From contig CP124756.1 of the NCBI GenBank assembly GCA_029972225.1, positions 1,284,001 to 1,348,000 of the forward strand: DNA of 64,000 bases, given 5' to 3'. Of this stretch, positions 37,870 through 50,815 are shown piece by piece. Within the stretch, counting starts at the first letter, position 1, and each line of letters opens with the position of its first letter. The position numbers and the translations under genes are program-made. The stretch comes from Candidatus Thiothrix putei (GTDB lineage: Bacteria > Pseudomonadota > Gammaproteobacteria > Thiotrichales > Thiotrichaceae). The notes under the pieces were generated by a model. The model did no database searches. It had not been told where the DNA came from and worked only from the letters and a program-made list of their open reading frames with translations.

Positions 37870-38832
37870 ATGCAGGTAATCTGTCTTAGTGATGACGGCA
37901 CACGCCGTAGATCGTTTATGTTACACCCCTGGAAACACCTGATTATCCCCGCAGGCATCGTTGCTTTGCTGGTGGTAGGGCTTTCCGTTAACCAAATGCT
38001 GGGTCTTTACCAACTCGATGCTACGCCGCCGAATGCTGAAGTGTCTGAAAATGATGCGAGCAAACTGTTATCTGCTCTGGAGCAGCAAATTTCTACGGTT
38101 GACCAGATTAAGAAAGCCTACGCTAACTATACTGTCGATGTGGATACATTATCGGTGCGTTTAGGTACATTGGAAGCAGAAATCGCACGTTTGAATGCTT
38201 TGGCAAAACGTGTTGCGAATAAAGCCAAACTTGATCCCCAGGAATTCTCGTTGGATACCAAACCTGCGCGAGGCGGTCTCGCTAGTGAAGAGCCTGAGGT
38301 TGTTATTCCCAAATTATCATCCAATGAATTTTTAGCCTCGTTTGAGCTGGTTGAAAATAATCTGGATCGCCAAAAAGGTATGTTGGCGACCTTAGACCAG
38401 ATTCTTGAGGGTATTAATGTGCAAGCAGAAGTCTCTCCTAGTGGTAGGCCAGTACGCAGTGGTTACATCTCTTCTGAGTTTGGTTTCCGGCGTGACCCTT
38501 TTAATGGTCGTCAGAAAATGCACAAAGGCGTTGACTATGCGGGGCCACAAGGTACGGAAATTTATGCGGTAGGTGGTGGGGTGGTTTCTTTCGCTGGGAA
38601 TCGCAATGATGGTTATGGCAATGTCGTCGAGGTTGATCATGGCGATGGCTTAATTAGCCGCTATGCTCATTTAAGTACCACGAAGGTTGCCGAAGGCGAA
38701 GTGGTGAAAAAGGGTGATAATGTTGCGTGGATGGGAAGCACGGGGCGTTCCACAGGTTCCCACCTGCATCTTGAAGTATTAAAGAATGGCGAACAGGTTA
38801 ATCCGCGTGAATACCTTGGACACGAAGAATAA
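37870..38832 (+). CDS. M23-family murein peptidase with membrane anchor and coiled coil
   Basis: A 320-residue protein. A membrane helix lies at about 25-45, a coiled coil at about 65-125 and a LytM/M23 domain at about 190-315, with zinc ligands in KMHKGVDYAG (H, D) and GSHLHLEV (HxH). With intact ligands it is probably an active D,D-endopeptidase, although anchored coiled-coil M23 proteins can also be amidase activators. Its place between dciA and secA is conserved in Pseudomonas. The ribosome site is weak. Confidence 0.9.
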   Translation: MQVICLSDDGTRRRSFMLHPWKHLIIPAGIVALLVVGLSVNQMLGLYQLDATPPNAEVSENDASKLLSALEQQISTVDQIKKAYANYTVDVDTLSVRLGTLEAEIARLNALAKRVANKAKLDPQEFSLDTKPARGGLASEEPEVVIPKLSSNEFLASFELVENNLDRQKGMLATLDQILEGINVQAEVSPSGRPVRSGYISSEFGFRRDPFNGRQKMHKGVDYAGPQGTEIYAVGGGVVSFAGNRNDGYGNVVEVDHGDGLISRYAHLSTTKVAEGEVVKKGDNVAWMGSTGRSTGSHLHLEVLKNGEQVNPREYLGHEE

Positions 38833-38876
38833 TTCACCGTACAGCCAGTTAAACCGTATATAATGTAATACAAACC

Positions 38877-38916
38877 GTCCGGTGTAGCGATGTGTCCGCA
38901 CAGCGTTGCACCGGAC
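38877..38916 (+). promoter_or_regulatory. Long hairpin in the secA leader
   Basis: A stem of about 18 pairs with one mismatch and a TCCG loop joins 38877-38894 with 38899-38916 (outer arms GTCCGGTG / CACCGGAC). It lies after a TATAAT-like -10 (near 38859) and about 35 bases before secA. It could terminate the M23 transcript or regulate secA in its leader. An 18-codon open frame (38890-38946, [18 protein letters not shown]) starts inside it. Confidence 0.55.
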
Positions 38917-38950
38917 TTTCTGTTTGGAAAGGATACAAGAGAGTAAACGT

Positions 38951-41662
38951 ATGCTGGGTTCTGTAGCCAAAAAGATTTTTGGCAGCCGCAATGACCGTCT
39001 GGTCAAGTCTTATTCCAAAGCCGTCAAGAAAATCAATGCGCTGGAAGAACAGTACAAAGCGCTGTCTGATGCCCAATTAGCGGCAAAAACCACCGAGTTC
39101 CGTAATCGTCTGCAACAGGATGAAACGCTCGCTAGCTTATTGCCTGAAGCATTTGCTGTTGTCCGCGAAGCCAGCCAACGGGTGTTGGGGATGCGCCATT
39201 ATGACGTGCAGATGATCGGCGGTATGGTATTGAATGACGGCAAAATTGCTGAAATGAAAACCGGTGAAGGTAAAACCTTGGTGGCAACGTTAGCTGCTTA
39301 CCTGAATGCTTTGCCGGGTAATGGGATGCATGTCATCACTGTCAATGATTACCTTGCACAGCGTGATGCCGTACAAATGTCGCGTTTGTACGGTTTCTTA
39401 GGGCTGACGACCGGGGTTATTATCAATGGTTTGAGTTCTGAGCAACGTCGTGAAGCCTATGCGGCTGATATTACTTACGGTACTAACAACGAATTTGGTT
39501 TTGACTATTTACGCGATAACATGGCCTTCCGTAAGGAAGACCGGGTGCAACGTGATCTGTATTACGCGATTGTGGATGAGGTCGACTCCATCCTGATTGA
39601 TGAGGCGCGTACCCCGCTGATTATTTCCGGCCCTAGCCATGATGCGTCCCAACTGTATATGGCAATCGACCAACTCATCCCGATGTTGGAAAAGCAACAG
39701 GAAGAAAACGGTGATGGCGATTATTCTGTGGATGAAAAAGCCCGTCAGGTCTACATGACTGAAACAGGTCAAGAACGTGCGGAACAATTGCTATGGCAGG
39801 CAGGCGTGTTGCCGGAAGGTCAAGGTTTGTATGATACGGTGAGCATCAGTGTGTTGCATCACCTGAATGCTGCTTTGCGTGCTCATGCGCTGTTCCAGCG
39901 TAACGTCGATTACATTGTGCGCGATGGCAAAATCGTCATTGTCGATGAATTTACCGGTCGTACAATGCCGGGACGTCGCTGGTCGGAAGGGTTGCATCAA
40001 GCGATTGAGGCCAAAGAAAAAGTCGAGATTCAGGCTGAAAACCAAACACTGGCGTCGATTACGTTCCAGAATTATTTCCGTTTGTATGAAAAGCTCTCTG
40101 GTATGACGGGGACGGCTGACACGGAAGCGTTCGAGTTGCAACAGATCTATGGCTTGGAAGTTGTGGTTATTCCAACGCATCGTCCCATGCAGCGAATTGA
40201 TTCCAACGATTTGATTTACCTGACGGCGGAAGAGAAATACGAAGCCATCATCAAGGAAATCGAAACCGAAGTCGCTAAAGGCAGACCGGTTTTGGTGGGT
40301 ACAGCGTCGATTGAGACGTCGGAGTTAGTGTCCAACAAGCTGAAAGAATTGCGAATTCCGCATGAAGTCCTCAATGCTAAGCAGCATGAACGTGAAGCCC
40401 ATATTATTGCTAATGCGGGTCGCCCCGGAGCGGTGACGATTGCCACGAACATGGCAGGTCGTGGTACAGATATTGTCCTCGGCGGTAGCATGGATGAAGA
40501 ACTCAAACAGTTGGGTGAAAATCCCAATCCTGAAGCCGTTAGCAAAATCAAAGCCTTGTGGCAGAAGCGTCATGATGCGGTAGTGGCCTCCGGTGGTTTG
40601 CATATCCTTGGTACGGAACGCCACGAATCACGCCGTATTGACAACCAGTTGCGTGGTCGTGCCGGTCGTCAAGGTGACCCCGGTTCTTCACGCTTCTTCC
40701 TGTCGTTGGAAGATAACCTGATGCGTATTTTCGCCTCCGAGCGGGTGAAAAGCATGATGCAGCGTTTGGGGATGGAGAAAGGGCAGGCGATTGAAGCAGG
40801 TTTGGTATCCAAATCCATCGAAAATGCCCAGCGTAAGGTAGAAGCTCACAACTACGACATTCGTAAACATTTGTTGGAGTACGATGACGTTGCCAATGAT
40901 CAGCGTAAGGTAGTGTATTCCCAACGCAATGATTTGCTGGAAGTGGATGATATTAAGGATACTATTGAGGCAATCCGTGAAGATGTCGTCGATGCAATGT
41001 TTGCGACACATATTCCACCCGGCAGTATTGACGAGCAATGGGATGTTGATGGCCTTTACAAGCAGCTTTACACCGATTTCGGGGTGGATTTGCCGCTCAA
41101 GCAATGGTTAGCCACCGAGAAAAACTTGCATGAAGAAAGTCTGCGTGACCGGGTTCAGGAGCAGGTTGCTGCCGTGCTTCAGCAGAAGGAAACCATGATT
41201 GGCGCACCCAATATGCGCCGTTTGGAACGTGATGTGATGCTGCATGTGCTGGATGGCGAATGGAAAGAGCATCTTGCAGCCATGGATTATTTGCGTCAAA
41301 GTGTGGGCTTGCGTGGTTATGCGCAGAAAAACCCTAAGCAGGAATACAAGCGTGAAGCGTTTGAAATGTTTGAGCAGTTGCTGGAACGTATCAAGCACGA
41401 TGTGGTGGCTTTCCTCATGCGTATCCAGTTACAAGAGCCGCAGCAAGCAATGGCTGAGCTAGAAACGCATGAACCTCAGCCGATGGCCTTTTCTCACCCT
41501 GATGCAGGTAATGCTTTCGAGGATGAGGAGGTGGTGGATGCCGTAGTGGGTAGTAACACGAGTAATCCCTATGAGCGTGATGGCCTGAAAGTAGGGCGTA
41601 ATGACCCTTGTCCGTGTGGTTCTGGTAAGAAATACAAAAATTGTCACGGTCAATTGGTTTGA
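38951..41662 (+). CDS. secA: Preprotein translocase motor SecA
   Basis: The ATPase that pushes preproteins through SecYEG. 903 residues. Walker [10 protein letters not shown] lies near 104-112, Walker [16 protein letters not shown] near 209, and the second motor domain has GTASIETSE and [11 protein letters not shown]. The C-terminal zinc finger [14 protein letters not shown], which binds SecB and lipid, is present. The ATG at 38951 is the standard [16 protein letters not shown] start; the frame extension to a TTG at 38906 is rejected. Confidence 0.99.
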
Positions 41663-41683
41663 TTTTATCCCGGAGTAGGTAAC

Positions 41684-42892
41684 ATGGCAGTCAACTTACA
41701 TGCACCTGATACTTTATTGCCCATTGCTGGTGTGCGTTTAGCATCGGTTAATGCCGGTATTCGCTACAAAAATCGTAACGATGTGTTATTGATTGAGTTG
41801 GAACCGGGTAGCCATACAGCGGCAGTGTTCACACGTAATGCGTTTTGTGCAGCACCTGTGCATGTTTGCCGCCATAACTTACAGCATTCTAATCCACGCT
41901 ATTTGTTGATTAATGCGGGCAATGCGAATGCAGGTACGGGTGAGCTGGGTATGCAGGCTGCCCGTGAAAGTTGTGAGCAAGTGGCACAGCAGGGTGCATG
42001 TTGGGCGGAGCAAGTGTTGCCTTTCTCAACTGGTGTGATTGGTCAGCAATTGCCAGTGGATAAAATAACCACTGCTTTGCCAGAAGCCTTTGCTAAATTG
42101 GATGCAGGCGGTTGGATGGAAGCCTCGCGTACTATTATGACTACGGATACGGTAGCGAAAGCGCTAAGCCGCCAAGTGGAAATCTTTGGTGAAACCGTGA
42201 CAATCACGGGGATTGCGAAAGGTGCGGGGATGATTCACCCCAATATGGCAACCATGTTGGCGTATGTTGCTACCGATGCCTTGGTTGAAAAAGACATTCT
42301 ACAAAATCTGTTGAATGATGTAGTGGAAGAAACTTTCAACTGCATCACTGTTGATGGCGATACTTCAACTAATGATTCTTTGATTGTCATGGCAACTGGC
42401 AGTTCAGGTATTTATGTAGGCGGTGATGGTTTGCCTGCGTTCCGTCAAGCCCTATTGGAGGTTTGTCTGTATTTAGCCCAAGCGATTGTGCGTGATGGTG
42501 AAGGTGCAACCAAGTTCATCAGCATTGCTGTGCAAGGTGCTGCAACGCGTGCTGAAGCCCGTGTCGTTGGCAATACCGTGGCATTATCCCCGTTGGTGAA
42601 AACCGCATTATTTGCCAGTGACCCGAACTGGGGGCGTATTCTTGCCGCCGTAGGACGTAGTCATGTTGATGCGTTGGATGTAAGCCGTATTAGTATTTGG
42701 TTAGGTAAAACGCTGTTGATCGAAAACGGTGAGCCAGCCGTCACCTACCGTGAAGAATTGGGCGCAGCAGAAACCAAGCGCGATGAAATCGATATTCGTA
42801 TCCATTTAGGGCGTGGCGAAGCCAGTGCGACGACGTGGACATGTGATTTTTCTTACGATTACGTCAAAATCAATGCCGAATACCGCAGTTGA
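41684..42892 (+). CDS. argJ: Glutamate N-acetyltransferase / N-acetylornithine acetyltransferase ArgJ
   Basis: A 402-residue bifunctional enzyme of arginine synthesis that recycles the acetyl group. It cleaves itself before the Thr of the ATML motif (HPNMATMLAYVATDA, near residue 190) to give two chains with a Thr nucleophile. KGAGMIHPN and the C-terminal YVKINAEYRS are intact. 21 bases after secA, as in Pseudomonas, and overlapping the Nudix gene by 20 bases. Confidence 0.98.
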   Translation: MAVNLHAPDTLLPIAGVRLASVNAGIRYKNRNDVLLIELEPGSHTAAVFTRNAFCAAPVHVCRHNLQHSNPRYLLINAGNANAGTGELGMQAARESCEQVAQQGACWAEQVLPFSTGVIGQQLPVDKITTALPEAFAKLDAGGWMEASRTIMTTDTVAKALSRQVEIFGETVTITGIAKGAGMIHPNMATMLAYVATDALVEKDILQNLLNDVVEETFNCITVDGDTSTNDSLIVMATGSSGIYVGGDGLPAFRQALLEVCLYLAQAIVRDGEGATKFISIAVQGAATRAEARVVGNTVALSPLVKTALFASDPNWGRILAAVGRSHVDALDVSRISIWLGKTLLIENGEPAVTYREELGAAETKRDEIDIRIHLGRGEASATTWTCDFSYDYVKINAEYRS

Positions 42893-43832
42893 CTATTTGC
42901 ATGTTGTCGCAGCGGTTATCCGTGATGCATCAGGCAATATCTTGTTGGCACAACGCCCTGCCAATAAACATCAGGGCGGTAAGTGGGAGTTTCCCGGTGG
43001 CAAAGTCGAATCCGGTGAAACGCCACAGCAAGCGCTAAGCCGTGAACTGCACGAAGAACTCGGCATTACCGTGGAGGATGCAGCGCCCTTGATCAAGGTT
43101 CGCTATGTTTATCCTGAACGTGCAGTATTACTGGATGTGTGGGAGGTAACGGCTTTCAGTGGCGAGGCGCATGGGCGAGAAGGGCAGCCTGTCGCATGGT
43201 TTCACGTTGATCAATTGTCAGCACTTGAATTTCCTCCCGCTAATGCACCGATTGTTAACGCGGCACGTTTGCCTGCTCATTGTCTGATTACGCCAGAGCC
43301 ACAAGATTCCGCTAAGTTTTTGCAACAGTTAGTGCAACGTTTACAGGCTGGTGTGCGTCTGATTGTTTTTCGTGCGAAAACATTGGATGCAGCAGGCTAC
43401 GTGGCCTTAGCTCATGAAGTGATTCGTTTGGGGCATTCGTTTGGTGCAACGATTATGCTGAACTCCCCCCCTGAGATGCTGGTGCAGGCAGATGGTTTAC
43501 ATCTGACGAGCCGTCAGCTCTTTACTGAGAGCGCAGCGAGTATCAGGGATACCTTATTGCCGGGGCAATGGTTATCAGCTTCTTGCCATAGCGTAGCGGA
43601 GTTGCAACAGGTAGCCATGCTTGGTGCGGACTTTGCTTTCCTCTCGCCCGTCTTACCAACGTTATCGCATCCGGGAGAAGAGCATTTAGGTTGGGAGGTA
43701 TTCGCTGCTATGGTGGATCAGGTGAATATTCCTGTATACGCTCTTGGTGGTATGGATGCTCAACACGTGTCAACAGCGCGGCATTACGGAGGACAGGGTA
43801 TTGCTGCCATCCGTCGTTTGTGGGATGTGTAG
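42873..43832 (+). CDS. mutT: Nudix hydrolase fused to a ThiE-like domain
   Basis: A 319-residue protein. The first ~135 residues are a MutT-type Nudix domain with a full Nudix box (GGKVESGETPQQALSRELHE then ELGI, residues 42-64) that would cleanse 8-oxo-dGTP. The rest (about 140-319) is a thiamine-phosphate-synthase-like barrel (LMLNSPP-like turn, DGLHLTSRQL, SCHSVAEL, FLSPVLPT, ALGGM). Such fusions recur in gammaproteobacteria, but the ThiE-like half lacks a proven role. The ATG at 42873 lies within argJ, so the two genes are coupled. Confidence 0.9.
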   Translation: MPNTAVDYLHVVAAVIRDASGNILLAQRPANKHQGGKWEFPGGKVESGETPQQALSRELHEELGITVEDAAPLIKVRYVYPERAVLLDVWEVTAFSGEAHGREGQPVAWFHVDQLSALEFPPANAPIVNAARLPAHCLITPEPQDSAKFLQQLVQRLQAGVRLIVFRAKTLDAAGYVALAHEVIRLGHSFGATIMLNSPPEMLVQADGLHLTSRQLFTESAASIRDTLLPGQWLSASCHSVAELQQVAMLGADFAFLSPVLPTLSHPGEEHLGWEVFAAMVDQVNIPVYALGGMDAQHVSTARHYGGQGIAAIRRLWDV

Positions 43833-43842
43833 TCTAAGTGTT

Positions 43843-44046
43843 TCAAGCATTGAGGTCTGGAATTAACTGACTATTGATGCGTGAAATCATATCTTTTAAC
43901 AATAGCTTGCGTTTTTTTAAACGTGAAATCCTGATTTGATCACTGTGAGGTTCTTGCAATAATGTTGCAAGAACCTCATCCAGTTCCCGGTGTTCTTGGG
44001 TGAGTTCCGCGAGTTTCCGGTGAAGTGCTTCCGTGTCTTGCTGCAT
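43843..44046 (-). CDS. YdcH/DUF465-family small coiled-coil protein
   Basis: A 67-residue helical hairpin protein (RKLAELTQEHRELDEVLATL, then ISRLKKRKLLLKDMI) typical of DUF465. Function is not established. It lies 7 bases downstream of the degenerate helicase gene on the same strand, so the two probably share a transcript. It converges with the Nudix gene, 10 bases away. Confidence 0.85.
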   Translation of the reverse strand: MQQDTEALHRKLAELTQEHRELDEVLATLLQEPHSDQIRISRLKKRKLLLKDMISRINSQLIPDLNA

Positions 44047-44053
44047 AATGGTT

Positions 44054-45643
44054 CTACTTGGTCAAAATACGGCGTTTTTCCTTGTAACGGATAACGACTT
44101 GTTTGTCAGTTTTGGGTTTGTCGCTCTGTTGTGCGTAATCGGGTTTTTCCCAACTGCCAATTTCATAAGAACCCCCTTGATCACGGCGGGGTGCAGGGGT
44201 AGCAGTGTAGCCACCTTCGCGTTTACGTTGTGCGCCACCGTTTAAGCGACCATAAGGGCCTTTGCGTTGCTGGCGATCAGCAGCGTTGGCTGAGGCTGGT
44301 TCTTGAGCTGGTGTAGGGCGGTTGTCTCGGCGACTACTTTGTTGCTGGTTTGGGTTACGTCCGCTACCTTGAGCTTGATGTGAGGAGCGGTTTTGGTTTG
44401 ATCCAGAGCGGCCTTGTTGTTGGCGTCCGCGTTCGCCTTGGTTACCATTAGTGCTGTTATGTTGGCGTTGCCCATTACTGTTGCTGCGATTGCTTCTGGG
44501 GGCTCGTACTGAGGGGGTAAAGCCTGATGTATGTTCCAGCGGGGCAAGACCAGGCAGGGTGCATTGTTCGATAGAGTCGCCGAGGAATGTTTCAATTAAC
44601 TTCAGATTCTCACGTTCGCGAGGTAATACCACGGCAATAACCGCTTCTTCCCGTTCTGGGCTGAGACCTTGTAGCCGAGCCTCATAATCTTCGACTTTGT
44701 GAGGTAACTCAAAGTTGATGATGTGCTCCCCCCCTTGGAAGTGTGGGTGGAGGCCATCTTGGTCCGCGTAAATCAGAATGGGTGCTGAGACGCCATTGCG
44801 TTCTTCTGCGGGTAAATCGGAGGCGACTTCAGCAGTATGTCCATGATTTGCAAGACTTTCTGCTAAGGCTTTCGCTACTTTTGTGGTCATTGTAAAAATA
44901 CAGGTGGGTTCACCTGAAAACTCATCCAATAAATGATCCATCAGCGCAATTTTGTGCGTGTAATCATCCGCTAAATGGACAACTTGTGGAATTTGTAACA
45001 GTGGGTTTCGGTCATCATCCACTTCAAGTTCTTCGGCTCCAGCCAGTACAGCACGAGCATAGCCAGCAATATCATTTTCTGGGCGTACAAATGCAATCAC
45101 GGGGCAGGCGGTGGTACGTTCCGAGAGAATCTTGTTAACGAGACCATGCAAACCTTTGTGGTAAATGGCGCTGAGGTCGTCAATCACTAACATCTCTAAC
45201 TTAGAAAAGTCTGCTTTGTTGTTATCAACCAGATCATTCAGACGACCAGGGGTGGCAATCATTAAGTCAAGTGGTCGGCGTAACAAGCGCATTTGCGGCT
45301 GATACGGGCGTCCACTAACGATGAAGCCTGAGCGAATCTGTGGCTCATCCCCCATCAAGCGTTTGATGGTGTAGTTAATCTGATTGACCCGATCCCGCCG
45401 TGAAGTAAGGATCAAAACACGGGTATGCCGTTGATCTTCAATTGGGTTGGTCAACACGTAGTTGATGGCCGGGATCAGGAATGCTCCCGTTTTACCGGAA
45501 GCTGATTGCGTCCAAACAATGACACTTTTATTTTGTGCCACAAGGGGAATCAACTGTTTTTGTAGTTCAGTCGGATTCTCGTAACCGGCAGCTTCAATTT
45601 TTGCTGCAAATTCTGGATGTAAGCCTAATTCTGAAAAAGACAA
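44054..45643 (-). CDS. Degenerate DEAD-box-like protein with Q/N/R-rich tail
   Basis: A 529-residue protein. Residues 1-360 follow the two-domain DEAD-box fold: a Q motif at 21-33 (YENPTELQKQ), a P-loop QSASGKT at 46-52 and TPGRL at 131-135. Key motifs are lost: DEAD is IDDLSA (154-159), SAT is replaced by IAFVR, motif V lacks ARGxD (ADQDGLH, 293-299), and HRxGRxGR is replaced by YEARLQGLSP. It may bind RNA and perhaps ATP but is unlikely to unwind RNA by the usual mechanism. The tail (about 370-529) is Gln/Asn/Arg/Gly-rich and low in complexity, as in RNA-binding condensate proteins. Its leader (45644-45844) is AT-rich and has no other gene. Confidence 0.85.
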   Translation of the reverse strand: MSFSELGLHPEFAAKIEAAGYENPTELQKQLIPLVAQNKSVIVWTQSASGKTGAFLIPAINYVLTNPIEDQRHTRVLILTSRRDRVNQINYTIKRLMGDEPQIRSGFIVSGRPYQPQMRLLRRPLDLMIATPGRLNDLVDNNKADFSKLEMLVIDDLSAIYHKGLHGLVNKILSERTTACPVIAFVRPENDIAGYARAVLAGAEELEVDDDRNPLLQIPQVVHLADDYTHKIALMDHLLDEFSGEPTCIFTMTTKVAKALAESLANHGHTAEVASDLPAEERNGVSAPILIYADQDGLHPHFQGGEHIINFELPHKVEDYEARLQGLSPEREEAVIAVVLPRERENLKLIETFLGDSIEQCTLPGLAPLEHTSGFTPSVRAPRSNRSNSNGQRQHNSTNGNQGERGRQQQGRSGSNQNRSSHQAQGSGRNPNQQQSSRRDNRPTPAQEPASANAADRQQRKGPYGRLNGGAQRKREGGYTATPAPRRDQGGSYEIGSWEKPDYAQQSDKPKTDKQVVIRYKEKRRILTK

Positions 45644-45844
45644 GATAGATACTCCCCGTCTGTGAATGTGGGTGAGAGTAATAAATAAGTAAATATTATC
45701 AAACTGGAGAGAAATATTAGCAATATAATGCTTTCAGCGACTGCCCGTACCTTTATTTGTAACGTTTGCATGGCCCGAACCGAATAATAAATTATTATAT
45801 CTGTTGTTGGGAGTCAACAAATTATGCACGTTATTGTTGCGAAT

Positions 45845-47209
45845 TTACATCACAATGTCTATCGCTTTCTCCAATCTGGCAATAGCGACCACTTTCATCC
45901 CCTCAATAGGGTGACGTGGCTTATTTCCTTTCGCTACGATGGCCTGTTTAAAACCGTGTTTAGCAGCCTCACGCAAACGCTCCTCACCGTTTGGAACCGG
46001 GCGAATCTCGCCAGCCAGCCCAACTTCTCCAAAAACCACCAGATCAGCAGGCAGAGGACGGTTGCGAAAACTTGAGAGAGCCGCCAACAACAATGATAAA
46101 TCAGCAGCGGTTTCTGAAATCTTAACACCACCGACGACATTTATGAATACGTCTTGGTCAAACATTGAAATTCCGGCGTGGCGATGTAGCACGGCAAGTA
46201 GCATGGCAAGGCGGTTTTGTTCTAATCCTAAGGTGACACGGCGGGGTACAGCACCGTGACTTTGGTCAACCAATGCTTGTACTTCGACCATCAGCGGGCG
46301 CGTACCTTCGCGGGTTACCATGATGACACTACCGGATACGGGTTCTTCGTGGCGTGAAAGAAAAATGGCGGAAGGGTTGCTGACACCTTTCAAGCCTTGT
46401 TCGGTCATAGCGAATACGCCAAGTTCGTTGACTGCGCCAAAACGATTTTTGACGGCGCGAATAATGCGGTAGCGTCCACCGGGGTCGCCCTCAAAATACA
46501 GTACGGTATCAACCATGTGTTCGAGAACCCTGGGCCCGGCGAGTGTACCCTCCTTGGTGACGTGACCGACGAGAAACATGGCGGTATTCGTTTGTTTGGC
46601 AAAACGCACCAGTCTGGCGGCAGACTCACGAATTTGGCTGACCGAGCCGGGGGCTGCTTGCAAACTATCGGTGAATACGGTTTGAATGGAGTCGATGACC
46701 ATCAGGTGTGGTTTTTCTTGTGATACTAGGCTTAGGATGCTTTCTACACAGGTTTCTGTGAGTAAGCGTAAGTGGTCGCTGGGTAGACCTAAGCGGCGGG
46801 CGCGTAGCCCCACTTGTTGCAATGATTCTTCGCCAGTGACGTATAGACTTTTTAGTTCAGGCAATGTCGCAAGCGTTTGCAGGAGGATCGTGGATTTACC
46901 AATACCGGGATCACCACCGATCAGGACAACTGAGCCTGTCATTAAACCGCCACCCAGTACGCGATCCAGTTCAGGTTGATGTGTAAGAATGCGTGGTGCT
47001 TCGCTTAAACTGACTTCGTTTAAGGAGCGAATGACTGCTTGTTCCCCTGCATATCCGCCTGCACGGTTGTTTTGTGTGTTTTTACTAGCAGGAAAACTTA
47101 GCATTTCTTCTAACGTGTTCCACGCGCCACAGTCGCTGCATTGTCCGCTCCATTTGTTGTGTAGGCCGCCGCAAGCTGTACAATGGTATTGAAGTTTGGC
47201 CTTACTCAT
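45845..47209 (-). CDS. radA: DNA repair protein RadA
   Basis: A RecA-like helicase that promotes branch migration in recombination. 454 residues. An N-terminal zinc finger (CTACGG...CSDCGAW) is followed by Walker A GGDPGIGKST near residue 91, the RadA motif VKNRFG near 253 and a C-terminal Lon-like domain. Overlaps the transporter gene upstream by 8 bases, so the three minus-strand genes are one operon. Confidence 0.97.
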   Translation of the reverse strand: MSKAKLQYHCTACGGLHNKWSGQCSDCGAWNTLEEMLSFPASKNTQNNRAGGYAGEQAVIRSLNEVSLSEAPRILTHQPELDRVLGGGLMTGSVVLIGGDPGIGKSTILLQTLATLPELKSLYVTGEESLQQVGLRARRLGLPSDHLRLLTETCVESILSLVSQEKPHLMVIDSIQTVFTDSLQAAPGSVSQIRESAARLVRFAKQTNTAMFLVGHVTKEGTLAGPRVLEHMVDTVLYFEGDPGGRYRIIRAVKNRFGAVNELGVFAMTEQGLKGVSNPSAIFLSRHEEPVSGSVIMVTREGTRPLMVEVQALVDQSHGAVPRRVTLGLEQNRLAMLLAVLHRHAGISMFDQDVFINVVGGVKISETAADLSLLLAALSSFRNRPLPADLVVFGEVGLAGEIRPVPNGEERLREAAKHGFKQAIVAKGNKPRHPIEGMKVVAIARLEKAIDIVM

Positions 47210-48491
47210 CGTTGTCTGCTGTTTTACGTTGAATTTTAGGGTGAATGATCAAGGTTTTGACTGCATTGTTGCGAGTTTTGCGAATCTCCAGGGGGTAATC
47301 GTCGATTAGCATGGTCATACCCGGTACGGGAATAGATTCAAGGTATTCCAAAATAAGGCCGTTAATGGTGTTGGCTTCTTCTGAGGTGAAATTGCTACCC
47401 AACTCGCGGTTAATGTCGCGGATAGGGATGCTGCCATCCACCCAGTAACAGCCATCTTCCATGCGTCGAATTTCACGGGATTGACTACTTGGTACGGTTG
47501 AGAATTCACCGACAATTTCTTCCAGAATGTCCTCTAGGGCGACTAAGCCACGAATTTCACCATATTCGTCGACCACTAGTGCAATGCGACGGTTTTCTGT
47601 TTTGAAGTTCAGTAATTGCTGCGTCAGCTCTGTGCTTTCAGGGATGTAGTAGGCGGGGCGAATACTGGCTTCGAAGCGCTCCCTATCCAAATGCCCGTCA
47701 CGGAATAGCGGCAAGAGTTTGCGCAAGTGTACGAAGCCGATGACATTATCAAGGCTTTCACGGTAAACCAACAAGCGCGTGAAATTGCTGTTAATAATCT
47801 GTTCCTCTAGTTCATTCCAATCCTCGTCCAGATCCAATCCGACCAGTTGGCTGCGGGGAATCATGATGTCTTCCACCGTAGTACTTTCCATATCCATGAC
47901 CCGCAACAGCATATCAAGGTGTGTTTGGGGGATGTGAGTTCCGGCTGAACTGACTACTGTGCGTAACTCCTCATGGCTGAGCGCGACACGACTGGTTTCA
48001 TCGCTGGTTGCCCCGAATAGTTTTAATAAGCTGTTAGTAATGAGATTCAGTAGAAAAATGAAAGGCCACATGATCTTCATCATGGCTGAGTAAATGCGCG
48101 ACGCAATAAATGCAATTGGCTCTGGGTGCATCGCAGCAAGAGTTTTCGGGGTGATTTCACCGAAAATCAGTAGGAGGAAGGTCAAAATGCCGGTTGCAAT
48201 GGCCAGCCCAGCATCACCAAATAAACGCAAGCCTAGCAAGGTCGCCAATTGGGTAATCAGAATGTTGACGAAGTTATTACCGAGCAAAATCAAGCTAATT
48301 AAGCGGTCAGGGCGATTCAACAGTTTTTGAGCTAAAACTGCTCCAGTATGCCCTTTTTCGGCTTGATGCTTGAGTTTATAACGATTAAGAGACATTAACG
48401 CTGTTTCAGAGCCAGAGAAGAAGGCAGACAGTAGAAACAGAATAAATAGAGCGAAGAACAGAATGCCTAATGGTATCTCATTAATATTCAT
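47202..48491 (-). CDS. CNNM/CorC-family (HlyC/CorC) membrane protein with CBS domains
   Basis: A 429-residue protein of the YfjD type. A DUF21 domain with about four membrane helices (1-190) is followed by two CBS domains (about 205-330) and a CorC_HlyC C-terminal domain (about 345-425). The family is linked to Mg2+ or Co2+ export and magnesium homeostasis. The gene lies between ccsA-like ypjD and radA, opposite ffh, as in E. coli, where yfjD and ypjD also sit beside ffh. Confidence 0.92.
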   Translation of the reverse strand: MNINEIPLGILFFALFILFLLSAFFSGSETALMSLNRYKLKHQAEKGHTGAVLAQKLLNRPDRLISLILLGNNFVNILITQLATLLGLRLFGDAGLAIATGILTFLLLIFGEITPKTLAAMHPEPIAFIASRIYSAMMKIMWPFIFLLNLITNSLLKLFGATSDETSRVALSHEELRTVVSSAGTHIPQTHLDMLLRVMDMESTTVEDIMIPRSQLVGLDLDEDWNELEEQIINSNFTRLLVYRESLDNVIGFVHLRKLLPLFRDGHLDRERFEASIRPAYYIPESTELTQQLLNFKTENRRIALVVDEYGEIRGLVALEDILEEIVGEFSTVPSSQSREIRRMEDGCYWVDGSIPIRDINRELGSNFTSEEANTINGLILEYLESIPVPGMTMLIDDYPLEIRKTRNNAVKTLIIHPKIQRKTADNDE

Positions 48492-48493
48492 GG

Positions 48494-49297
48494 TTATTTT
48501 ACTAGGAACTCCAGCACGAATTTGCTACCAAAAAAAGCCAGCATTAAAATGAAAAAGCCACTGAGTGTCCAGCGAATAGCGATACGCCCCCGCCAGCCGT
48601 ATTGCCAGTGCCCGATGAGTAGCGTGGTGAAGACTATCCAAGCCACAATGGACAAAATAGTTTTGTGAGCCAAGTGTTGTGCAAACAGGTTATCGACATA
48701 CAAAGCACCGCTCAATAAACCAAATGACAGCAAAATGACGCCAAGCACTATCAGCTTGAACAATAGTGCTTCCATATCCAGCAGGGGAGGCAGAGTACGC
48801 ACTAGGCCACCCGGTTGGTGATTGTGCAGGTGACGATTTTGCAGAGCAAGCAGTAGCGCCTGTAAAGCAGCTAAAGTCAAGATGCTATAAGCCAATAAGG
48901 AAGTAAAAATGTGCACACCTAAACCATTGTTCAAGTTAATCACTGCCGTTTGAGTGGGATTCAGTAATGGCAGCAACATCGCGCTTAAGGTAAAAGGTAC
49001 CACTAAAATCCCTAACGTTTCCAAAGGGCGTTTTAGCATGGTGAAAAACAGCAGTAAATTGCACAGCCACATGACGATAGAACTGGCAGAGGCAAAGCTA
49101 ATCGATACCCCATCTGCTTGACCAATGTGATGTAAGATGCTTCCGCCATGCAATAGTAACGCAATGATCCACAGCACAACCAATACACCGCGATGTTTAG
49201 GTGAGCGGGTTTGCAAGCGATCCCTCAAGCGTACCCCTATCAGTAGCCAAGTCGTCACCCATGCTAGAGTCGCGAACAGGTTAAGTATTATTGTCAT
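48494..49297 (-). CDS. ypjD: CcsA/YpjD-like cytochrome c assembly-type membrane protein
   Basis: A 267-residue protein with about eight hydrophobic helices, matching the family that shares the CcsA heme-handling fold. Conserved His residues lie in LLHGGSILHH (helix 3) and in GVHIFTSLLAYS. Its true role beside ffh is unclear; in E. coli the homologue is uncharacterised. Two bases separate it from the CorC-family gene. Confidence 0.88.
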   Translation of the reverse strand: MTIILNLFATLAWVTTWLLIGVRLRDRLQTRSPKHRGVLVVLWIIALLLHGGSILHHIGQADGVSISFASASSIVMWLCNLLLFFTMLKRPLETLGILVVPFTLSAMLLPLLNPTQTAVINLNNGLGVHIFTSLLAYSILTLAALQALLLALQNRHLHNHQPGGLVRTLPPLLDMEALLFKLIVLGVILLSFGLLSGALYVDNLFAQHLAHKTILSIVAWIVFTTLLIGHWQYGWRGRIAIRWTLSGFFILMLAFFGSKFVLEFLVK

Positions 49298-49342
49298 TAC
49301 TCAAATAGATTTCGTGTGTTAGGTCATCAATTTTCAGGGTTA

Positions 49343-49361
49343 CGTTCCTGTTTCGGGAACG
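49343..49361. promoter_or_regulatory. Inverted repeat between ypjD and ffh
   Basis: CGTTCC-TGTTTCG-GGAACG is a 6-bp-arm dyad in the divergent promoter region, about 70 bases before ffh. TATGAT near 49384 is a likely -10 for ffh. No regulator is identifiable. Confidence 0.35.
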
Positions 49362-49429
49362 CATTCACTGTTGCTTTAATGCTATGATAGCAACTTGTGC
49401 CTGAATGGGACTAGCAAGAAGTCAAAATC

Positions 49430-50815
49430 ATGTTCGAGAATTTAAGTGAACGTCTTTCGCAGACGGTAAAAAAACTACGCGGTCAGGCTCGTTTGACCGA
49501 TGAGAATATTAAAGATGCACTGCGTGATGTGCGAATGGCACTGTTGGAGGCGGATGTGGCGCTGCCGGTGGTACGCGAATTCACCAATCGGGTGCGTGAA
49601 CGGGCCATTGGGCAAGAGGTATTGGAAAGTCTTAGCCCCGGTCAAGCCTTGATTAAAGTGGTCAACGACGAGTTAGTTGATCTCATGGGCAAGGCGAATG
49701 AAAGCTTGTCTTTGAACGCTCAGCCCCCCGCCGTCATTTTGATGGCAGGTCTACAAGGTGCGGGTAAAACCACGACGGTTGGTAAATTAACGCGTTTCTT
49801 GAAAGAGCGTCAGAATAAGTCCGTGATGGTGGCGAGTTGCGATGTTTACCGTCCTGCTGCGATTAAACAGCTTGAAACCATCGCAGGGCAAACGGGCGGG
49901 GTTTTCTTTCCCAGTGAGGTAGCGCAAAAGCCAGTTGAGATTGCTAAAGCCGCAATAGCACAAGCGAAGCTTAAGTATATGGATGTGCTGATCATTGACA
50001 CAGCAGGGCGCTTGCACGTTGATGCAGATATGATGGCAGAAATCCAAGCGATTCATGCGGCTGTGAACCCGATTGAAACTCTGTTCGTCGTGGATAGTAT
50101 GACGGGGCAGGATGCCGCTAATACTGCCAAAGCATTTGGTGATGCCTTGCCGTTGACGGGGGTGGTGTTAACGAAGGCGGATGGAGATGCACGAGGTGGT
50201 GCGGCCTTATCGGTGCGGTACATCACGGGCAAACCAATTAAGTTCATCGGGATGGGCGAAAAGCTGGATGCTTTGGAGCCTTTCCATCCAGAACGTATGG
50301 CCTCGCGTATTTTGGGTATGGGCGATGTGCTAAGTTTGATCGAAGAAGCCCAGCGTCAGGTTGACCATAAGAAAGCGGCACAGTTAGCCAAAAAGCTTAA
50401 CAAAGGCAAGTCCTTCGATTTTGAAGATTTGCGTGACCAAATGTTACAAATGCAAAAAATGGGTGGTATGGCTGGCTTGATGGATAAGTTGCCGGGTATG
50501 GGGAATTTGCCCGCTAATGTTAAAGATCAGGCCAATGATAAGGAGGTACGTCGTATGATCGCGATCATTAATTCGATGACGTTGGAAGAGCGGCGCAATC
50601 CGGATATCATCAAGGCATCCCGCAAACGTAGGATTGCGTCCGGTTGTGGGTTGCAAGTGCAAGATGTTAACCGCCTGCTTAAGCAGCACTTGCAGATGAG
50701 TAAAATGATGAAGCAGTTTTCAAAAGGTGGTTTACGCAAGTTGATGGGGGGTATGAAAGGAAAGTTACCGATGGGTGGTGGGGGATTTCCTCCTATGGGA
50801 GGCTTTCCAGGGTAG
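49430..50815 (+). CDS. ffh: Signal recognition particle protein Ffh
   Basis: The SRP54 GTPase that delivers inner-membrane proteins to SecYEG. 461 residues: an N domain (1-85), a G domain with GLQGAGKTT near 107, DTAGR near 190 and TKADGDARGG near 247, and a Met-rich M domain (about 300-445, e.g. MQKMGGMAGLMDKLPGMG) that binds 4.5S RNA and signal sequences. The tail is Gly/Met-rich. Monocistronic here, because rpsP is separated by four other genes. Confidence 0.98.
   Translation: MFENLSERLSQTVKKLRGQARLTDENIKDALRDVRMALLEADVALPVVREFTNRVRERAIGQEVLESLSPGQALIKVVNDELVDLMGKANESLSLNAQPPAVILMAGLQGAGKTTTVGKLTRFLKERQNKSVMVASCDVYRPAAIKQLETIAGQTGGVFFPSEVAQKPVEIAKAAIAQAKLKYMDVLIIDTAGRLHVDADMMAEIQAIHAAVNPIETLFVVDSMTGQDAANTAKAFGDALPLTGVVLTKADGDARGGAALSVRYITGKPIKFIGMGEKLDALEPFHPERMASRILGMGDVLSLIEEAQRQVDHKKAAQLAKKLNKGKSFDFEDLRDQMLQMQKMGGMAGLMDKLPGMGNLPANVKDQANDKEVRRMIAIINSMTLEERRNPDIIKASRKRRIASGCGLQVQDVNRLLKQHLQMSKMMKQFSKGGLRKLMGGMKGKLPMGGGGFPPMGGFPG

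Follow-up and report, generated by a model that had tools for sequence, protein, structure and literature searches.

In DEAD-box proteins, ATP promotes RNA binding via closure of the two lobes. The second and third arginines of motif VI contact ATP phosphates and the motif V aspartate contacts the ribose, the motif V arginine pairs with the last aspartate of the DEAD motif and so opens the RNA site, motifs Ia and Ib bind RNA phosphates, and a histidine-arginine pair of motif VI packs within its lobe (PMC2948006). Two proteins are called pseudohelicases in the full text of 5.39 million open papers, Utp25 and Deinococcus radiodurans PriA; the authors of the Utp25 work count it as the second to be proposed (PMC9539457). 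In D. radiodurans PriA, ATPase activity and unwinding are lost, and nucleic-acid binding and partner contact are kept (PMC4504706). We found no bacterial DEAD-box pseudohelicase in the open literature, the coverage of which leaves out most subscription journals and bioRxiv preprints.

Here we describe a DEAD-box-like protein of Candidatus Thiothrix putei, encoded within a 64,000-nucleotide stretch of its chromosome (the window). Like Utp25/Def, a eukaryotic SSU-processome pseudohelicase, it has a DEAD-box fold with predicted non-functional motifs and a disordered extension, and would have a non-catalytic role (PMC9539457). Utp25/Def differs in being eukaryotic, in carrying its extension at the N-terminus, and in its motifs, of which Ia is retained and Q, IV, V and VI are left in part (PMC9539457), whereas in the Thiothrix protein motif Ia is altered and the Q motif, GKT and TPGR remain. 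The likeness to D. radiodurans PriA is that both are bacterial and that the PriA motifs are eroded across a whole phylum; however, PriA is a DNA replication-restart helicase, and it is the usual priA gene that is altered rather than an additional DEAD-box paralogue (PMC4504706). A further resemblance is to RhlE-like helicases with long C-terminal tails, which share the two RecA lobes, the basic low-complexity tail and, often, a TTG or GTG start, but the 27 relatives that we examined outside the order keep their catalytic motifs.

A sixth DEAD-box gene in Candidatus Thiothrix putei

The gene lies on the minus strand at positions 44054..45643 of the window and encodes 529 aa, as supported by its translated open reading frame, a Pfam DEAD match and order-wide orthologues; the frame is open throughout, as the first-pass annotation had stated. 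It is 99% identical to its counterpart in T. caldifontis. The host genome, which is complete (4.28 Mb), contains five further DEAD-box genes with full motifs. Their best NCBIfam models are DeaD/CsdA-type, RhlE, SrmB, DbpA and RhlB, with only DbpA passing its equivalog cut-off. Hence, the protein studied here is a sixth, additional member.

Translation is predicted to start at a TTG codon (45641-45643) preceded by a Shine-Dalgarno-like GGGGAG (45652..45657, minus strand) that is kept in an alignment of upstream DNA. There is no alternative start among the 30 open codons upstream of the TTG, and the first in-frame ATG does not occur before residue 97. Wherever the 5' end of a member of the order is complete, the gene starts with TTG, in most cases behind a good Shine-Dalgarno sequence; the active relatives also start mostly with TTG or GTG. 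A promoter-like block, TTGACT-N12-TATAAT (45794..45817, minus strand), lies in the intergenic region after radA, about 150 nt before the start codon; its function is predicted from the alignment and its spacing is non-canonical. Among the upstream regions of 12 members, conservation of the block extends from Thiothrix to those of Thiolinea and Thiofilum, and the leader downstream of it is poorly conserved. A sigma-70 scan did not return the block, because its spacing is 12 nt, and no known RNA element reached Rfam gathering thresholds in positions 38000-50000 of the window. The gene likely has its own promoter and a long 5' leader, and retention of a weak start across the order suggests translational control, possibly autoregulation.

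The gene is shared by an entire order and has a single origin

We searched genomes of the order Thiotrichales, and detected a profile match with E<=1e-60 in 60 of 63. In one more genome the gene is cut off by the end of a contig (residues 1-99 remain, 9.5e-53), bringing the total to 61 of 63; the two genomes without the gene are metagenome-assembled genomes (MAGs) that are 80-89% complete and yielded only canonical-looking matches. All eight genera of the order are represented, and the full-length copies have intact frames. The named loci belong to Thiothrix, Thiolinea, Thiofilum, Leucothrix, Cocleimonas and Thiotrichaceae MAGs, along with a few whose titles are vaguer or doubtful. One of these, QOAQ01000140.1, is titled 'Aquificaceae bacterium' and carries a Leucothrix-type member; this MAG is probably mislabelled or contaminated.

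To look beyond the order, we sampled the class (369 genomes) and the phylum (398 genomes) in partly overlapping draws, and scored the best few candidates from each genome. In these samples, scores above 600 bits were confined to members of the order, with the best others at ~290; the gene was thus found in none of the ~760 genomes sampled outside the order, although a rare outside copy may have escaped. The 27 outside relatives whose sequences we fetched retain GTGKT, DEAD, ARGxD (or SRGxD) and HRIGRTGR; the serine of SAT is present in all but one of them (26/27). In a tree, the members of the order group together with 100/100 support, and the stem that leads to them is 2.06 changes per site long; on this phylogenetic evidence, the clade has one origin. 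The best family scores were obtained with the NCBIfam RhlE, RhlE2 and 'CsdA Psy1082' models (154-180 bits), far below every equivalog cut-off. By score, the parent was probably an RhlE-like helicase, with a long stem and midpoint rooting that leave the attachment point unsure.

Motifs acting across the cleft are lost throughout the order

We compared motifs in 46 full-length members of the order with those in the 27 active relatives from outside it, and aligned the Thiothrix putei protein with the five helicases of its own genome and with relatives. The Thiothrix putei protein retains the Q motif, GKT and TPGR. Elsewhere, PTREL of motif Ia is replaced by SRRDR, DEAD of motif II by DDLS, SAT of motif III by VRP, TDxAARGxD of motif V by ADQDGLHPH, and HRIGRTGR of motif VI by ARLQGLSP, in which the first arginine alone survives, as a structural residue. 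The P-loop reads TQSASGKT. These replacements are shared by all homologues within the order, which speaks against chance and against a sequencing artefact: motif II is DD[LMFY][STA] in 46/46 members, such that its glutamate is always aspartate and its last residue always S, T or A; serine occupies the first column of motif III in 0/46; RGxD of motif V and HRxGRxGR of motif VI are absent from all members searched, motif VI retaining its first arginine alone; and the glycine before GKT is alanine in 46/46. At the arginine and aspartate of motif V and the histidine and second arginine of motif VI, the replacement residues vary among the 46 members, a pattern of lost function. Basic residues that are both new and invariant occur in motif Ia and close to the GG and Ib sites. 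Residues invariant in both the 46 members and the 27 active relatives are F3, Q28, G50, K51, T52, T131-R134, D155, D294 and R323.

Two stretches also differ in length. The stretch containing the IVa segment (residues 260 to 294) is 33-36 aa in 46/46 members and 43 aa in 27/27 active relatives, that is, 7-10 aa shorter in the order. The inter-lobe stretch (residues 185-231) measures 48 aa in 27/27 active relatives, 47 aa in 23/46 members, and 69-105 aa in the other 23/46, which are of the Leucothrix/Cocleimonas type. These longer members, half of the total, carry low-complexity insertions of 22-58 aa between the RecA lobes, which are absent in Thiothrix and in the active relatives examined. A precisely closing motor would hardly tolerate such indels.

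Given the residue roles described previously (PMC2948006), these changes follow a simple division. As the alignment shows, what is lost in all members is the set of cross-cleft residues for ATP hydrolysis and RNA clamping, namely the last aspartate of DEAD, SAT, the arginine and aspartate of motif V, the second and third arginines of motif VI, and the IVa segment; what is kept are residues whose role lies in nucleotide or RNA-backbone binding by RecA1 alone (the Q motif, GKT, the first aspartate of motif II and TPGR) or only in the fold. The first-pass annotation had the Q motif and P-loop as remaining, and DEAD, SAT and motifs V and VI as replaced. The Q motif and GKT are indeed kept, but the P-loop has exchanged one glycine for alanine; all four named motifs are altered, but every member still has the first aspartate of motif II and the first arginine of motif VI. 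The replacement of motif Ia and the shortened IVa segment had been missed. Alignment of homologues, proposed at that stage as a check, found the motif losses to be common to the whole order, with full motifs only in relatives outside.

We considered whether the protein could be an active ATPase or helicase with an unusual site, in which the DD of motif II provides the acidic side chains and the arginine fingers are replaced by basic residues from other positions. GKT, the Q motif, and the first and an invariant second aspartate of motif II are present in 46/46, and the position of the catalytic glutamate holds an invariant aspartate rather than asparagine or glutamine, which together with GKT makes a slow ATPase compatible with the sequence. 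However, RGxD of motif V, the second and third arginines of motif VI, and SAT are lost, no single replacement being conserved across the columns of motifs V and VI; in addition, the IVa segment is shorter and the linker has expanded to varying degrees. We regard an active enzyme as quite improbable. Rather, we strongly infer that catalysis has been lost.

A second possibility is an ATP- or ADP-sensing RNA clamp, in which RecA1 binds nucleotide and RNA together and the nucleotide sets the affinity without hydrolysis. The nucleotide-binding residues that RecA1 supplies in cis are invariant, and K51, T52, Q28 and D155 would hardly be selected in a pure RNA binder, unless they are structural. Set against this, the change of the Walker A glycine to alanine is fixed (46/46) and could equally be read as loss of ATP binding, and the lobe closure that drives ATP-promoted RNA binding (PMC2948006) depends on closing residues that are lost. 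We consider a clamp of this kind unlikely, though less so than an active enzyme.

The fold is intact and maintained by purifying selection

Pfam PF00270 (DEAD) matches residues 25-175 (4e-22), and Helicase_C is sub-threshold (E 0.028, 15.1 bits versus a cut-off of 23.5). We built an AlphaFold2 model on a 36-row alignment. Both lobes were modelled with pLDDT ~90 and the tail as disordered; the pTM of 0.51 reflects the free tail and an unsure lobe arrangement. The RecA1 lobe (residues 1-207; 45023..45643, minus strand; pLDDT ~90) contains the Q motif, TQSASGKT, SRRDR, TPGR and DDLS, and the RecA2 lobe (residues 218-366; 44546..44992, minus strand) has lost motifs IVa, V and VI but keeps the invariant D294 and R323. 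Modelled RecA1 matches the N-domain of CshA (Z 26.7, 2.0 Å over 200 residues), and the closest structural match of the whole core is Dhh1 (4brw; Z 30, rmsd 6.5). Thus, the PF00270 match, the model and its matches in the PDB (Z 26-30) agree on the presence of the two RecA-like lobes of the DEAD-box fold. The whole-length match to Dhh1/DDX6 reflects lobe arrangement, not kinship. Dhh1/DDX6-type proteins have low intrinsic ATPase activity and a role as RNP scaffolds, and both Dhh1 and DDX6 retain their catalytic motifs.

RecA1 has 62 invariant sites among the 46 members versus 65 among the active relatives; RecA2 has 14 versus 47, and its constraint is therefore relaxed. Within Thiothrix, dN/dS (NG86) was 0.02-0.06 for RecA1, 0.03-0.08 for RecA2 and 0.09-0.19 for the tail, with silent sites near saturation and some pairs giving no value. 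The lower conservation of RecA2 relative to active relatives is what would be expected if this were a DEAD-box gene decaying within a lineage and becoming a pseudogene. However, full-length frames are intact in eight genera, dN/dS is far below 1, and the replacements are fixed order-wide; unless the sampled genomes are strongly biased, the dN/dS values and order-wide conservation rule decay out, and we give it almost no credence. As far as the alignments and tree reach, the motif losses are a fixed trait of the order, not the decay of one strain. With order-wide motif losses, strong purifying selection and an intact fold, the earlier proposal that the protein is kept for something other than unwinding is supported, and we hold a retained non-catalytic role to be about as probable as the loss of catalysis. 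The protein combines a helicase fold bearing vestigial motifs with retention by selection, two of the features by which a pseudohelicase has been defined, a third being a loss of catalysis demonstrated by mutation or assay (PMC9539457).

Two conserved tail motifs, but no conserved neighbour

The C-terminal tail (residues 367-529; 44057..44545, minus strand) is basic, disordered (pLDDT ~40) and rich in Q, N, R and G; it is 163 aa long, close to the previous estimate of about 160, with a pI of ~11.3 and a composition of Q 12%, R 13%, G 11% and N 8%. It includes two conserved motifs, RKGPYGRLNGGAQRKR (residues 460-475; 44219..44266, minus strand) and the C-terminal KQVVIRYKEKRRILTK (residues 514-529; 44057..44104, minus strand). 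RKGPYGRLNGGAQRKR and the C-terminal VVIRYKEKRR occur throughout most of the order, and in none of the 27 active relatives. Each motif is present in a single copy in its own genome, where a search with degenerate DNA patterns found no other protein carrying them.

Downstream, a DUF465 (YdcH-like) gene of 67 aa (43843..44046, minus strand; PF04325, 5e-13) begins 7 nt after the stop codon. It was found to adjoin the gene only in the Thiothrix/Thiolinea/Thiofilum lineage, and not in every member there; it was not found beside the gene in Leucothrix, Cocleimonas or other clades, which have map-rpsB-tsf or different genes next to it. The low-complexity tail and the coupled DUF465 gene had both been offered as evidence for an RNA-binding scaffold. 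Neither supports a scaffold in particular: active relatives likewise have low-complexity Arg/Gly/Asn/Gln tails, such that the tail is not specific to the inactive form, and the DUF465 pairing is limited to one sub-lineage, such that there is no general reason to expect the two proteins to co-purify. On sequence grounds, specific support for a scaffold comes instead from the two tail motifs.

We looked for an operon partner and found none that is conserved, since DUF465, radA, thiE, map/rpsB/tsf, a TPR gene and further neighbours vary by sub-lineage. In Leucothrix/Cocleimonas loci, the gene adjoins map and a divergent rpsB-tsf-pyrH-frr cluster, and in several a gene for a TPR-repeat protein then follows. 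Next to the DUF465 gene in the window, the frame at 42813-43832 appears by eye to join a putative MutT-type NUDIX domain to a ThiE-like domain, and overlaps the end of argJ; the homologous frame is much shorter in Thiolinea and Thiofilum. A phage origin was rejected, as PHROGs gave no match, as was a defence origin, for which PADLOC gave only a weak match (SngC, 28 bits) over the shared helicase part.

A proposed role in RNA metabolism

We consider it reasonably probable that the protein is an order-wide pseudohelicase in which RecA1 and the tail bind RNA, and which acts as an RNP adaptor or helicase cofactor. RecA1 would bind RNA, perhaps gated by binding of ATP or ADP, with no hydrolysis cycle; the basic disordered tail would add RNA affinity; and the two conserved tail motifs would dock a partner. 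As a constitutive RNP adaptor or cofactor, the protein would then serve, for example, an active DEAD-box helicase (one of the five), ribosome assembly or RNA decay. Of these steps, we infer RNA binding with moderate confidence and judge it likely, and we are least sure of the adaptor role.

More tentatively, and with the balance leaning against it, the protein may be a core component of RNPs in Thiotrichales, and one that defines the order. RecA1 would serve as a hydrolysis-free, possibly nucleotide-gated RNA module and the tail would recruit a conserved RNA machine, making the protein an obligate partner in ribosome assembly or RNA decay, and the first bacterial DEAD-box member known to work without a motor.

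Automatic annotation pipelines are likely to label this protein as a helicase, and such labels call for caution. With dozens of its members sequenced, a DEAD-box protein of this kind that is fixed throughout a bacterial order constitutes a natural experiment that separates the share of the RecA lobes in RNA binding from that of ATP. The protein may be core to the RNA biology of filamentous sulfur bacteria.
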